Source of the DNA: Verrucomicrobiaceae bacterium
Lineage (GTDB): Bacteria; Verrucomicrobiota; Verrucomicrobiia; Opitutales; Intestinicryptomonadaceae
Assembly (NCBI GenBank): GCA_015061955.1
Contig: SUVO01000007.1
Location: forward strand, 62,001 to 126,000
DNA: 64,000 nt
Direction: 5' to 3'
Shown here piece after piece: positions 59,039 to 64,000 of this stretch. A program made the translations under genes and the position numbers. Under the pieces are notes generated by a model. It was not told where the DNA came from. It made no database searches and worked only from the letters and a program-made list of their open reading frames with translations. How positions within the stretch are numbered: position 1 is the first letter of the stretch; every line of letters starts with the position of its first letter.

Positions 59039-60832
59039 ATGTGTACTATGAGAACTTTAATATTTGTGTTTTTGTTTGTTGCTGTATCGGTATTTGCTGA
59101 TTCGGTTTTTGAACGTGTAAATTTGATTGAAACCAAAATAAACGGAAGCGTAAGTGAGCATTCGTATAACTTAAAAAAGCAACCTGATGGTGCGTATCGA
59201 GTTCACGTTCCAATCGCCCAACTTACTGCAGATATCGACTATATCGACATTGTTGGCGATTTTGGAAAAGCCAAAAAGGGCGAAGATGGTTATTTTGTTT
59301 TGCCACCTAATTCGATTGGTTCTTTTACAAAAGATAATGGTAAAGCCGAGCAACGCAATATGAGTTTGCCAATTTTTGGTATGAAAAATCCTCGTAATTG
59401 TTTTGTTGCAATCGTAAAAGGGTTGCGTTTTGAATTTTCGACTATTGTAAATGTTGAAAATGGTAATTATTTGATGTTCCCACGCTTTCACATAAAGGGC
59501 ATAGAGTTTGCACCATACGAAGATTTGATTATAGATTTTTACGAGTTGAAAGGCGATAATGCAAATTACAGTGGTATGGGCAGAACGTATCGTAAATATC
59601 AGTTAGATAGGGGCGAAGTTAAGCCAATTAAAGAGCGTATAAAAACAAGTCCAAGCCTTAAGTACACAACCGAATCTATTTTTGTGCGTCTTACACAGGG
59701 TACAAAAGATCGCGATACACGTTATCCATTGCAAACTGCCGAAAATGCATCTGAGGTAAAAGTAGTTGTAAGTTTCGACGAAGTTATGGAAAAAATGCGC
59801 CAGTTCTACAAACTTGGTATGCGTAAGATTGAAGTTTGTTTTGTTGCTTGGAATATTGAAGGCTTTGAAGGGCGATTGCCCGACTTGTTTCCACCCGATC
59901 CAGCCTTTGGTGGTGAAGCTAAAATGAAAGAGGCTATTGCGCTTGGTAAAAGCTTGGGCTACCAGATGACCAATCACGTTTGCAACTGGATTGCATCTCG
60001 CAATGCTAAGCGATATTCCGACGATATTGTTGCTAAAACGCAAACTGGCGACTTAATGCATTATCCAATTATTCGTATTCCAAGTGGCTTGTCTTATGTA
60101 CCTTGCTTTCAGGTTGTTTACGACAAATTTATCGACGAAGATTATAAAGGTATGCAAGATTTAGGTTTTACTTGCGGAACACATCATATCGATGTAACTA
60201 GTGCGCGTCCACCATTTGTATGTCATGATCCTCGCCATCCGTGTACTCGCAAAGATACAGCCGAGTATCAAAATAAGATAGGCGAAAAGTGTAAACAATA
60301 CTTTGGTGGTTTTTCGTCGGAAGCTGGTTTTGACCACGTTGCTCGCACTATGGATTTTGCATTGTATACAAACGCATTCTTTCGTACAAAAATCCGAGCT
60401 AAACATTTAAAAAGAAAATACGACTTAGGTCTTTTGGATAATAGAACTATACCACTTTGGCAAATAGTTTATCATGGTATAATCTTGAGCAATTCAGATT
60501 GGGAAACTATCGACTTGTACAATGATAGAGGTTGTCCAGAATTAGCAACATGGCGACGCCTTCAGTTTTGGGAGTATGGTGGCAGACCTGTATTCTACTG
60601 GAAAAAAGCTGAACCAGTTGAAGAAGTCTTGAAAATCTACAAAGAGTATCAACCTATGGTTTATTTGCAGTACGAGTTTATGGATTTTCACGGCGAAATT
60701 GCTCCAAAAGTATTTATAACTCGTTATTCTGACGGCAGTGAAGTTATAACAAATCATAGTAAAAATCCATTTGAGTATAAAGGGCAATCTGTTCCTGCCG
60801 AAGATTATAAGTTATTTAAAGCAAGCAGATAA
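59039..60832 (+). CDS. Secreted putative glycoside hydrolase (DUF5696-like), paralogue 2
   Basis: 597 residues with a signal peptide ending VFADS near residue 22. It is homologous over its length to the protein at 33481: GRLPDLFPPDPAFGGEAKMKEA, HHIDVTSA, FGGFSSEAGFDH, PLWQIVYHGI and WEYGGRPVFYWK. The conserved HHID Asp and FSSE Glu are catalytic candidates. It follows the methyltransferase by 1 base and ends just before the first copy of the repeated terminator that begins the surface-protein array. Substrate unknown; the DUF5696 relation is from memory. Confidence 0.7.
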   Translation: MCTMRTLIFVFLFVAVSVFADSVFERVNLIETKINGSVSEHSYNLKKQPDGAYRVHVPIAQLTADIDYIDIVGDFGKAKKGEDGYFVLPPNSIGSFTKDNGKAEQRNMSLPIFGMKNPRNCFVAIVKGLRFEFSTIVNVENGNYLMFPRFHIKGIEFAPYEDLIIDFYELKGDNANYSGMGRTYRKYQLDRGEVKPIKERIKTSPSLKYTTESIFVRLTQGTKDRDTRYPLQTAENASEVKVVVSFDEVMEKMRQFYKLGMRKIEVCFVAWNIEGFEGRLPDLFPPDPAFGGEAKMKEAIALGKSLGYQMTNHVCNWIASRNAKRYSDDIVAKTQTGDLMHYPIIRIPSGLSYVPCFQVVYDKFIDEDYKGMQDLGFTCGTHHIDVTSARPPFVCHDPRHPCTRKDTAEYQNKIGEKCKQYFGGFSSEAGFDHVARTMDFALYTNAFFRTKIRAKHLKRKYDLGLLDNRTIPLWQIVYHGIILSNSDWETIDLYNDRGCPELATWRRLQFWEYGGRPVFYWKKAEPVEEVLKIYKEYQPMVYLQYEFMDFHGEIAPKVFITRYSDGSEVITNHSKNPFEYKGQSVPAEDYKLFKASR

Positions 60833-60857
60833 TTAGAATAAAATATTTTTTTTAGAG

Positions 60858-60887
60858 TGCGTATTGAAAAAATACGCATTTTTTTTT
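60858..60887 (+). terminator. Repeated terminator hairpin, copy 1
   Basis: TGCGTATT-gaaaa-AATACGCA with a run of nine T. It lies 25 bases after the putative hydrolase and immediately before the first G-tract promoter. The same stem recurs at 62187 and 63840. Confidence 0.9.
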
Positions 60888-60896
60888 ATTTTTTAC

Positions 60897-60926
60897 TTGA
60901 CAAACATTGTTGGGGGGGGGTAGCAT
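60897..60926 (+). promoter_or_regulatory. Promoter with G9 spacer tract, copy 1 (likely phase-variable)
   Basis: TTGACA (60897-60902) and TAGCAT (60921-60926) are separated by 18 bases, of which 60912-60920 are nine consecutive G. The -35 box is a perfect consensus and the -10 matches at four positions. Loss or gain of a G changes the spacer from 18 to the optimal 17 or to 19, which would alter transcription. Confidence 0.75.
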
Positions 60927-60956
60927 TTGCTAAGTAAATTTAAAAAAGGAAACATT

Positions 60957-62162
60957 ATGAAAAAAAGTTTAATTCCAATAATGCTTGCATTTGCTTCTAT
61001 GGCTTATGCAACAGATATAAATGTTACATCAGTTGATTCTGCAAATCCAACACAATTAACAAAGGTAAGTACTCTTGCTTTCGACTTCAAAAATGGTTCG
61101 GAATCTGGATTAGATAATGTGTACGGTACTTATACTGCTAGAATAAATGCAGATAAATCGATAGTTACTATTGCCGAGAATGTACATCTTGATTTTACAT
61201 ACAACGATAGCCAGATTTGGTCGGGTTTGACTATGGCTGCTGGGTCTTCTATTAACTTAACTGAAGCTAAAGGTGGCTTGCGTTTGCAAAAAAACGCTGC
61301 AACTATCCGTGGCGATATTACTATAAATGGTTTTAAGCACACCAGTGATTATTATTTTGGTGGAGATAATTATGCTCTTCATATAAAAGGTATAACTGCA
61401 AACTTTAGAGGCAATTCTAGTTTAACACAGTTAGGCGTATATGGGGCATATAATGATTTCTCTCGTTCAATGAATAGAATTTCGGGTACGTTCGATGTTA
61501 ACACTACTGGAAAATTAAAGTTCGACGATTATGTTTATTTCCATTCTTCTACAATTATATTGAAGAGTTCAAATTCTCTTATTTCCGGTGCAGGCGTAGA
61601 AAAAAATGCAACAAATGTTGATGCAGGTTTGAAAAACGCTACAAGCCAAGCCGACTCAACATTCTATTTTATAAATGGCAATGGAGATAAGAGTTATGAA
61701 TTGAAAGAATGCGAGGTTGTTATAAACGCTTCCGCAGCAAACGAATTCGGTACTTTTAATGTGTACAGCGGTTCTACTTTAAAGTTGATTTCTGAAACTC
61801 TTAAAGACGGCACTTCGGCTTTCAAAGTTAATGAGCTTAACATCTTTACTGAAAATGCAACAACCGAAGGTGCTACTGCTATGAACAACGATTTGTCACT
61901 CACTCTTCAGTTGAATTTTTATGAAGGCAATAGCGATAATATGTTCATCGGCAATTTGGAAGAACTTATCGATTTGGCAGATGTAAAATTTCAAGTATAC
62001 AATCATTCTCTCTCTAAGTATGAAGATGGTGTTTTAGGTGAAAACTTCTTCATAAATGATGGCTGGATTTCAAGAACTCCTGAAGTTCCAGAGCCAGCCG
62101 AATGGGCAATGATTTTCGGAGCAATTGCGTTGGGCTTTGTGGCGTATCGCAGAAGAAAATAA
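60957..62162 (+). CDS. Secreted PEP-CTERM-type surface protein 1
   Basis: 401 residues. Signal peptide MKKSLIPIMLAFASMAYATD, then a beta-rich repetitive region with no cysteines or catalytic motif (IWSGLTMAAGSSINL, GGLRLQKNAATIRGDITI), which resembles autotransporter or adhesin-type beta-helices. The C-terminus is VPEPAEWAMIFGAIALGF then VAYRRRK: a PEP motif, a membrane helix and a basic end, the signal that exosortase-type systems use for surface sorting. AAGGA precedes the start. Transcription is expected from the G9 promoter. Terminator follows 24 bases after the stop. No exosortase gene is in the window. Confidence 0.82.
   Translation: MKKSLIPIMLAFASMAYATDINVTSVDSANPTQLTKVSTLAFDFKNGSESGLDNVYGTYTARINADKSIVTIAENVHLDFTYNDSQIWSGLTMAAGSSINLTEAKGGLRLQKNAATIRGDITINGFKHTSDYYFGGDNYALHIKGITANFRGNSSLTQLGVYGAYNDFSRSMNRISGTFDVNTTGKLKFDDYVYFHSSTIILKSSNSLISGAGVEKNATNVDAGLKNATSQADSTFYFINGNGDKSYELKECEVVINASAANEFGTFNVYSGSTLKLISETLKDGTSAFKVNELNIFTENATTEGATAMNNDLSLTLQLNFYEGNSDNMFIGNLEELIDLADVKFQVYNHSLSKYEDGVLGENFFINDGWISRTPEVPEPAEWAMIFGAIALGFVAYRRRK
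62085..62162 (+). repeat. PEP-CTERM anchor repeat, copy 1
   Basis: 78 bases encoding VPEPAEW...YRRRK and the stop. Copy 2 at 63740-63817 differs at only 3 positions (one changes Gly to Ser, two are silent). The upstream parts of the two genes are quite different, so the 3' ends have been homogenised or recently copied. Confidence 0.9.
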
Positions 62163-62186
62163 TGAAAGATAAATAGTTTAGAAAAA

Positions 62187-62215
62187 TGCGTATTGAAAAA
62201 AATACGCATTTTTTT
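62187..62215 (+). terminator. Repeated terminator hairpin, copy 2
   Basis: TGCGTATT-gaaaaa-AATACGCA followed by seven T, 24 bases after the first PEP-CTERM gene. Confidence 0.9.
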
Positions 62216-62226
62216 GTTTTTTTTGC

Positions 62227-62257
62227 TTGACAAAGGTTGCTAGGGGGGGGGTAGCAT
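62227..62257 (+). promoter_or_regulatory. Promoter with G9 spacer tract, copy 2 (likely phase-variable)
   Basis: TTGACA (62227-62232), TAGCAT (62252-62257), spacer 19 bases ending in nine G (62243-62251). The -10 to ATG distance (30 bases) equals that of copy 1, so the module is conserved as a unit. The longer spacer predicts a weaker state than copy 1 at these tract lengths. Confidence 0.75.
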
Positions 62258-62287: not shown

Positions 62288-63817
62288 ATGAAAAAATTAT
62301 TTATCTTATCTACATTATCTACAATGCTTGCAGTTGGCTCGTTTGGGGCAGAAACTGGCACTGTTATAAATAAAAACGGTTCAAAGGGTTGGACAAAAGC
62401 TGATACTTGGCTCGATGGCGATATTCCAACTTATAACGATTCTTCTATAGATGAGTTTGTTATAACTTTTAGCAGAGAAGAAGGTTCTACTTCGACCGAA
62501 GCTTATTTGGATATTGCCAAAGGTTCTATTAACAGTGGAATTTTGAATTATGGTAATGGTGTTTCTTACATTTTAACACCTGTTTTGGCAGATGGTATTG
62601 AAACTGTTACTATCAATGGTGGAAGTACAAGCAATAATTCTAAATGTCAGGTGAAGATTGATAGCCTTACGTCTGGTAAGCTTATTTTTACTGGGAATAA
62701 AGATAAGTTCTATTTAAATGGTAATAGTATGGCGACTGATGTAACTGTCGAGTTTCAAGCGAAAATGAATAATAGTGGATGGAATTGTAGTGGTTTTAAA
62801 GGACACCTCATTATAAATGAGTCGCAAAGTACTGCTTCTGATTCTAACAAAATTGGAAGACTGTCTGGGACTGGTAGTATTTCAATATTAAAGGGACATC
62901 TAACAACTACTAAAGCATCATCTTCAGGATCTGGGTCATCGGTAAATTTGCAAGGGTCTTCTATGTTGAAGATTAACGCAGGTTCATCGTTTACTACTTC
63001 ATCGGGTTTGAAAGTTATGAATGGCGATATTGCTGGTGCTATAAACGTTGATGGTTGGCAAACAGGCTTCTCTAAAAATGTCGATAATATCCAGTTTACC
63101 ATGGGTAGCAAAATTATATTTAGAGATACCGCAACCTTAAATGTGGCTGCGGGCGATACTACGAAATCGCGTACTTATATAAATGATGGTGCAGTTGTTG
63201 TTTCAGAAGCAGGAGCAGGAGCTTTGAAATTTAATCAAGCCTTGCAGTTAGATAGTGGTGCAACTTTGATAATGAACACTTCAAACGCCATAGTAAACGA
63301 TGAATCGGGCAACACAAAGTTGTTGGTTTCAAATTATCAAACAAGTTCTTTTGATGGCGTAGCAAATGCAAATTTGAAGTTCGGTTATGATATCGATGAC
63401 AACAAACTTGAAACTCCTGTTGATACTAATGGCGATGCTATTGTAAATGATATTGCAAATCTTGATATGTATGATGCTTCAACTTTGAATTTGTGGTTGA
63501 ATGGTACTACATTGAATATTGGTGCTGTTTCGCAAACAGGTTCAGATTCTTCAAGCATATTCACTCTTATGCTTCAAGATGATGTAGAAAGAGGCTCGTT
63601 GTTTGTTCAAGACTTCAATGGTTTGACTACATTAGAAGATGTTGAAACATACATTAGCAATGTATCGGGCGAAGATTTCTTTGTTGAATTTGCAAATGGA
63701 ATATCGGCTGATGGTGGTTATTATATCTATAACGTAGCAGTTCCAGAGCCAGCCGAATGGGCAATGATTTTCGGAGCAATTGCATTGAGCTTTGTAGCGT
63801 ATCGCAGAAGAAAATAA
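62288..63817 (+). CDS. Secreted PEP-CTERM-type surface protein 2
   Basis: 509 residues. Signal peptide MKKLFILSTLSTMLAVGSFGAE, then a Ser/Thr/Asn/Gly-rich, beta-type region (GSTSNNSKCQVKIDSLTSGKLIFTGNK, SGSGSSVNLQGSSMLKINAGSSFTTSSG) and the same VPEPAEW...YRRRK anchor as the upstream gene. The N-terminal and middle parts have little similarity to protein 1, so one anchor is shared by different passengers. Only two Cys codons are present in the passenger (SKCQ, WNCS). No clear ribosome-binding site before the ATG. Expected to depend on the second G9 promoter. Confidence 0.82.
   Translation: MKKLFILSTLSTMLAVGSFGAETGTVINKNGSKGWTKADTWLDGDIPTYNDSSIDEFVITFSREEGSTSTEAYLDIAKGSINSGILNYGNGVSYILTPVLADGIETVTINGGSTSNNSKCQVKIDSLTSGKLIFTGNKDKFYLNGNSMATDVTVEFQAKMNNSGWNCSGFKGHLIINESQSTASDSNKIGRLSGTGSISILKGHLTTTKASSSGSGSSVNLQGSSMLKINAGSSFTTSSGLKVMNGDIAGAINVDGWQTGFSKNVDNIQFTMGSKIIFRDTATLNVAAGDTTKSRTYINDGAVVVSEAGAGALKFNQALQLDSGATLIMNTSNAIVNDESGNTKLLVSNYQTSSFDGVANANLKFGYDIDDNKLETPVDTNGDAIVNDIANLDMYDASTLNLWLNGTTLNIGAVSQTGSDSSSIFTLMLQDDVERGSLFVQDFNGLTTLEDVETYISNVSGEDFFVEFANGISADGGYYIYNVAVPEPAEWAMIFGAIALSFVAYRRRK
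63740..63817 (+). repeat. PEP-CTERM anchor repeat, copy 2
   Basis: Second copy of the 78-base anchor-coding sequence, 75 of 78 bases identical to 62085-62162. Similarity continues, in broken form, through ATAAATAGTTT and the terminator. Confidence 0.9.
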
Positions 63818-63839
63818 GAGGTATAAATAGTTTGAAAAA

Positions 63840-63867
63840 TGCGTATTGAAAAATACGCATTTTTTTT
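63840..63867 (+). terminator. Repeated terminator hairpin, copy 3
   Basis: TGCGTATT-gaaa-AATACGCA followed by eight T, 22 bases after the second PEP-CTERM gene. Confidence 0.9.
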
Positions 63868-63904
63868 GCAAATAGAAGTTCTGTTTTCCTCTGCCTTTTA
63901 AGGC

Positions 63905-63933
63905 TTGACAATTTTATAGCTGAGGGGGATAAC
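63905..63933 (+). promoter_or_regulatory. Promoter with short G tract, copy 3
   Basis: TTGACA (63905-63910), then a 17-base spacer and GATAAC (63928-63933), with five G (63924-63928) at the spacer/-10 border. The arrangement resembles copies 1 and 2 but the tract is shorter and the -10 differs, so it may be fixed rather than switching. Confidence 0.5.
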
Positions 63934-63960
63934 TTACTTGCTGATTATCAAGGGATTTTT

Positions 63961-64000
63961 ATGAAAAAATTGTTAGTATTTTTAAGCTTTTTGTTGACAA
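63961..64000 (+). CDS. Third array gene, 3' truncated by the window
   Basis: ATG followed by KKLLVFLSFLLT, the start of a Sec signal peptide, cut by the window edge after 13 codons. Its position after a G-tract promoter and terminator copy 3 makes another PEP-CTERM-type surface protein likely, but the anchor cannot be seen. Confidence 0.6.
   Translation, partial: MKKLLVFLSFLLT

Follow-up and report, generated by a model that had tools for sequence, protein, structure and literature searches.

Background

The closest described systems are promoters of Neisseria meningitidis and Treponema pallidum in which a run of G residues lies between the two hexamers. According to the available part of one source (PMC7864442), a poly-G homopolymer alters the -35/-10 distance of the meningococcal porA promoter, and the T. 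pallidum tp0126 promoter carries poly-G between its -35 and -10 elements, with an optimum of 17 nt. The same text reports tprL tracts of 7–11 G that vary within isolates, the reporter signal in E. coli being higher with G8 than with G10. In the excerpted text of a further source homopolymers appear as a general device (PMC2831843). For Akkermansia muciniphila, also a member of the Verrucomicrobia, phase variation via mononucleotide slippage has been suggested, with long tracts in 17 genes, two of them capsule genes, and PEP-CTERM proteins were noted; the accessible portion of that report (PMC3048395) describes neither a promoter-spacer array nor a link to PEP-CTERM. Finally, invertons (invertible promoters) occur near PEP-CTERM genes in gut bacteria, as given in the part of PMC11892184 at hand.

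The locus described here resembles tp0126 and tprE/G/J/L in that poly-G lies in surface-protein promoters (PMC7864442, available part). In T. pallidum, however, several porin-like genes are concerned and the tract positions differ, whereas here one module with spacers of 17–19 stands before some 25 genes of one sorting class. The meningococcal genes porA (poly-G spacer) and opc (poly-C) are single genes in an unrelated organism and protein class, in contrast to the present array. The invertons share with it phase variation near PEP-CTERM genes, but act by DNA inversion and not by the slippage proposed here (PMC11892184, available part). The most likely reading is one of regulon-wide slippage-tuned promoters of the Neisseria porA/Treponema tp0126 type. 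As far as the open-literature search reaches, the mechanism is known while the scale, the tie to one sorting class and the host are new. That search, mostly judged from listings, returned no account of promoters with a poly-G spacer, either for PEP-CTERM genes or for the Verrucomicrobia. The author of the original prediction was likewise unaware of a description for verrucomicrobial PEP-CTERM proteins.

Promoter and gene organization

The window, that is the whole 64-kb stretch of DNA that was analyzed, has a G+C content of 35 to 39% in 8-kb steps, so that the surroundings are AT-rich, as had been said. The features discussed below are as follows.

60889–60896, + strand, T6 plus AC, directly 5' of the -35 hexamer
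60897–60902, + strand, -35 hexamer TTGACA
60903–60920, + strand, 18-nt spacer, consisting of AACATTGTT and G9
60912–60920, + strand, G9 tract, abutting the -10 hexamer
60921–60926, + strand, -10 hexamer TAGCAT, then TTTG(C), which is kept among the copies
60957–62162, + strand, PEP-CTERM protein, 401 amino acids from an MKK start (ATG at 60957)
62227–62257, + strand, second promoter copy: TTGACA (62227–62232), 19-nt spacer, G9 (62243–62251), TAGCAT (62252–62257)
62288–63817, + strand, second PEP-CTERM protein, 509 amino acids, tail VPEPAEWAMIFGAIALSFVAYRRRK
63905–63935, + strand, degenerate third relative: TTGACA, a G5-bearing spacer and ATAACTT, preceding an ORF that starts at 63961 and leaves the window
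about 60857–60888, 62186–62216 and 63839–63868, terminator-like hairpins (by eye)

The original prediction rested on a TTGACA, a TAGCAT and nine G between them in an 18-nt spacer ahead of a PEP-CTERM gene, and all of these are present. A 30-nt leader separates the -10 element from the ATG at 60957, and the 401-amino-acid product matches TIGR02595 with 17.6 bits (cut-off 16); PF07589 gives 11.8 bits, which is under its cut-off of 20.7. The second copy, at 62227, does not figure in the original prediction; its 509-amino-acid protein scores 15.2 bits with TIGR02595, slightly below the cut-off of 16.

Apart from the G9 tracts at 60912 and 62243, the window has no run of eight or more G or C. A search of both its strands for TTGACA-N15..20-TANNAT returned exactly two pairs, each with G9 (at 60897 with spacer 18 and at 62227 with spacer 19). 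The four overlapping G8 matches observed compare with a mean of 0.06 in shuffled sequences, none of 100 shuffles reaching four.

Two side observations concern the neighbourhood. The hairpins listed above are near-identical (TGCGTATTGAAAAATACGCAT plus a T run) and lie 3' of three consecutive genes. Nucleotides 59039–60832 specify a DUF5696-like protein. Stretches that match it number 53 in the present genome, 29 in the relative G004 and 35 in the relative G009; from these sequence matches it appears to be a member of a very large paralogue family.

Genome-wide distribution of the promoter

The genome is a 2.43-Mb draft assembly of 35 contigs (93% complete; G+C about 37%) and contains, on both strands together, 37 G tracts of at least 8 nt. 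Of these, 29 (G8 to G10) lie in a spacer behind TTGACA and are followed immediately by TA, corresponding to 28 loci if the copies on contigs C15 and C26 are one. Two of the 29 adjoin a contig end and have no readable gene, that on C26 being probably the same locus as the one on C15. Among the 27 readable genes behind spacer tracts, 25 end in a PEP-CTERM tail; the others specify a protein of 1228 amino acids, which has immunoglobulin-like and choice-of-anchor Q domains, and a Sel1-repeat protein of 1135 amino acids, both with signal-peptide-like starts as judged by eye.

The whole genome was also searched in a way that does not depend on G, using TTGACA-N15..20-TAGYATTTG. This pattern occurs at 19 sites, every one of which carries G8 to G10, against a single match for the reversed pattern. 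GC stands directly 5' of the -35 hexamer in 21 of the 26 copies with a readable flank, nearly always after an A or T run; we infer that this upstream stretch is UP-element-like. The shared module thus reads: A/T run, mostly GC, TTGACA, 9 nt, A or G, G8 or G9, TAGYATTTG, a leader of about 30 nt, and ATG. As a genome-wide promoter module it is real. Like the porA/tp0126-type promoters it has a pure G tract between a recognizable -35 and -10, and through the PEP-CTERM tails it is tied to the control of what would be surface proteins.

One further promoter class was considered. The sigma-54 consensus is GG-N10-GC at -24/-12; it was rejected, GC being at the needed place in only 15 of 27 copies.

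The eight tracts outside spacers were inspected as well, and six of them lie at PEP-CTERM genes, three within the first 18 codons. Two genes on contig C9 have G8 from codon 16, inside their signal-peptide-like starts, and one on contig C31 has eight C in codons 6–8. Eight C are found 108 nt before a PEP-CTERM start on contig C8, nine C 112 nt before another on contig C22, and a further G8 lies 141 nt upstream of one of the two starts on contig C9. The starts of these genes are all in frame with the PF07589 match. Of the last two tracts, one falls within a gene on contig C24 and the other lies on contig C13, upstream of a gene that resembles a recombinase gene. The former (C24:18193–18203) is a run of eleven C close to the 3' end of a gene with, by eye, a TetR-type-regulator-like start, and slippage there would change the C-terminus of the protein. 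The latter (C13:4055–4063) is a G9 tract some 380 nt upstream of what looks like a serine-recombinase gene.

Seen from the side of the genes, PF07589 has 42 places in the genome at an E-value up to 1, 19 of them above the cut-off. A tract is found near the start in 27 of the 42 (including C4:22887) and in none of the other 15, one of which is a 36-amino-acid fragment; three more PEP-CTERM tails behind tracts fall outside this list. PEP-CTERM genes that have no G tract share, by eye, another upstream motif, approximately ATGGGTATTTGTAATACTATAT with variations, at loci on contigs C29, C22 and C18 (two on C18) and in genome G002. It may belong to a second regulon whose operator is an inverted repeat.

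Spacer length

Counting both contig-end copies, the spacer is 18 or 19 nt in 27 of the 29 promoters and 17 nt in two, so that all have 17–19 nt, near the sigma-70 optimum as in porA and tp0126, where one G more or less would be expected to matter. The 19 sites found with TAGYATTTG comprise nine spacers of 18 nt, ten of 19 nt and none of 17 nt. Two layouts can be distinguished. In layout A (n=15) 9 nt precede the tract, which has a mean of 9.5 G; in layout B (n=12) 10 nt do, the tenth being A, and the mean is 8.5 G. The number of G differs between them (Mann-Whitney p 0.0007) but the total spacer is 18.5 nt in both (p 0.76), and it therefore looks as if the distance, rather than the G count, is held, as in a promoter. 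This trade-off between G number and preceding segment is largely a matter of A replacing G at the first base of the tract. The 18/19 spacing is narrower than unconstrained slippage would leave, which counts against free switching.

Differences in tract length were sought within the assembly. Over 153 nt, contig C26 at its end and contig C15 at its start are alike except for one gap, which sets G10 in the former against G9 in the latter; PCR or sequencing stutter could have produced this difference. Four promoter pairs have identical first 9 spacer bases, and two of these differ in length (18/19) while two are equal. By hand count, four of the 37 tracts lie less than 150 nt from where a contig ends, against 0.16 expected. 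The length differences and the contig-end tracts fit a mixed population, though trouble in sequencing G runs could also account for them. The ends of contigs C21 and C7 were considered as one locus and rejected: they share 35 nt and the same G10, a base mismatch follows, and adjacency was not established.

Comparative genomics

The strict pattern is absent from the 13 same-genus and five other same-family genomes searched, and a looser one gave two chance-like matches, in one of these 18 genomes. A general poly-G richness of the genus was examined in same-genus genome G004, which has 140 overlapping G9 matches, and was rejected as an explanation, none of the 19 tract loci examined there being a TTGACA spacer. 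G004 also has, at C1:78754, a run of sixteen C that either directly precedes a PEP-CTERM gene or lies in its first codons.

In a sample of the order the pattern was present in three of 371 other genomes, with no match for the reversed-pattern control. One of them, G172, which belongs to another family, has its own set of nine sites, eight found by the pattern and one among 20 further PEP-CTERM upstream regions. Eight of the nine are on PEP-CTERM genes, the spacer letters differ from those of the present genome, and the spacer lengths are 13, 14, 14, 15, 15, 15, 17, 17 and 18/19. Some other PEP-CTERM genes of G172 have, by eye, TTGACA promoters with mixed spacers of about 16–18 nt. No such promoter was found at the 20 PEP-CTERM places, out of 50, inspected in G115, which is of the same genus as G172. 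The arrangement appears to be gained and lost from one related species to the next, in the manner of contingency loci. The upstream regions inspected were 20 of 41 in G002, 9 of 10 in G004, 7 of 9 in G009, 20 of 50 in G115 and 20 further of 46 in G172, the 17 places of G008 being left out; for five of the 76 no start was obtained, and a few of the starts that the script chose look wrong.

In a sample of the phylum, 14 of 386 other genomes had the pattern, with 19 matches in all, and the reversed pattern had none. Seven of the 19 loci have closed genes, in ten the gene runs off the locus and in two no gene was found. A PEP-CTERM link that is general across the phylum was rejected, since only one of the seven closed genes has the tail. 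A wider scan of the genome_contigs collection with TTGACAA-N7..10-G8-TANNAT returned at least 117 stretches; the 80 loci listed are, by record title, largely from Clostridia, Bacilli, Treponema and others including Streptobacillus, many from animal guts. Many of the matches listed precede proteins with signal-peptide-like starts (by eye), and there is no second strain of the species among them. IMG/VR yielded no same-species DNA with the specific promoter pattern.

Discussion

What is observed comprises the array, its association with genes, the spacing and, at a single locus of the assembly, a difference between G9 and G10. We consider it likely that a shared promoter module drives about 25 PEP-CTERM proteins and that its G tract serves as a simple-sequence contingency element, the surface repertoire being mixed by slippage. 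In living cells, slipped-strand mispairing would add or remove one G, and such steps would shift the -35/-10 spacing among 17, 18 and 19. The housekeeping sigma factor prefers a spacing of about 17, and for this reason each step would change promoter strength, given a sigma-70-type reading of the promoter. Strength would change gene by gene and independently, and a clonal population would come to display a mixed, reversible surface repertoire. As far as can be judged from the DNA, random switching or tuning of the surface coat in single cells probably takes place.

The original prediction of poly-G slippage in a PEP-CTERM promoter spacer fits these data in part. In its favour are the genome-wide array, the G8 and C8 tracts that three other PEP-CTERM genes have within their first 18 codons, the G9/G10 difference and the separate set in another family. 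It does not stand as a single-gene feature, and the narrow 18/19 spacing speaks against a free-running change of length, the one length difference being at another locus and taken from the assembly, not from reads. Free slippage by itself would not make lengths beyond 17–19 as rare as they are, and either selection for a certain range of promoter strength or weak slippage has to be assumed in addition.

The tightness of the spacing, at 18 or 19, is also what would be expected if the G tract were a fixed element, recognized by a dedicated regulator or acting as stiff, differently twisted DNA, which marks one PEP-CTERM regulon at constant length and involves no switching. The A/T run, the mostly present GC and the TTTG are kept around the hexamers as a common regulator would demand, and the tract is in all 19 TAGYATTTG sites. 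Tract length nevertheless ranges from 8 to 10, with two lengths at one locus, and in the G172 set the flanks are different and the spacers run from 13 up to about 19. Tracts of PEP-CTERM genes are, moreover, also on the other strand, where an operator would work differently, and within codons, which suits slippage and is unsuited to an operator. We therefore regard a fixed element as unlikely.

Less probable still is that the promoter was simply copied along with a multiplying PEP-CTERM family, the G run being an inherited, neutral spacer. The promoters are alike, most of the genes are of one class, and the neighbouring copies at C21:82055 and C21:83582 are near-identical. Yet several spacer positions ahead of the tract (among 2–7) have diverged while the pure G run was kept in 19 of 19 TAGYATTTG sites, and a neutral G8–10 should decay in DNA of about 37% G+C; tracts also precede two genes that belong to different families, and with different flanks they reappear in a second family of bacteria. 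An assembly or sequencing artefact, for which the draft state (35 contigs) and the excess of tracts at contig ends might speak, is very improbable in view of 29 copies with differing flanks and orderly promoter positions, and of the same architecture in unrelated assemblies.

Returning to slippage-tuned promoters, a bolder proposition is put forward tentatively, and we stop a little short of leaning towards it. Most of the sortable surface coat would be governed through one slippage-tuned module, with about 25 PEP-CTERM genes flickering independently among spacers of 17, 18 and 19, backed by first-codon tracts in other members. The arrangement would have had a separate origin in another family of the order, and the recurrence of similar spacers in gut Clostridia and Bacilli, Treponema and Streptobacillus would make promoter-spacer slippage a common, largely unrecorded means of diversifying commensal surfaces.

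The best-known cases of poly-G spacer switching concern a small number of pathogen genes. If the reading given here is true, an array of some 28 promoters in a verrucomicrobial genome, almost all of them before genes of one sorting class, would provide combinatorial surface variation outside the classic pathogens, the tight 18/19 spacing being a puzzle within it. It would also supply a regulatory logic for the little-understood PEP-CTERM proteins, one that could be tested from existing metagenome reads.
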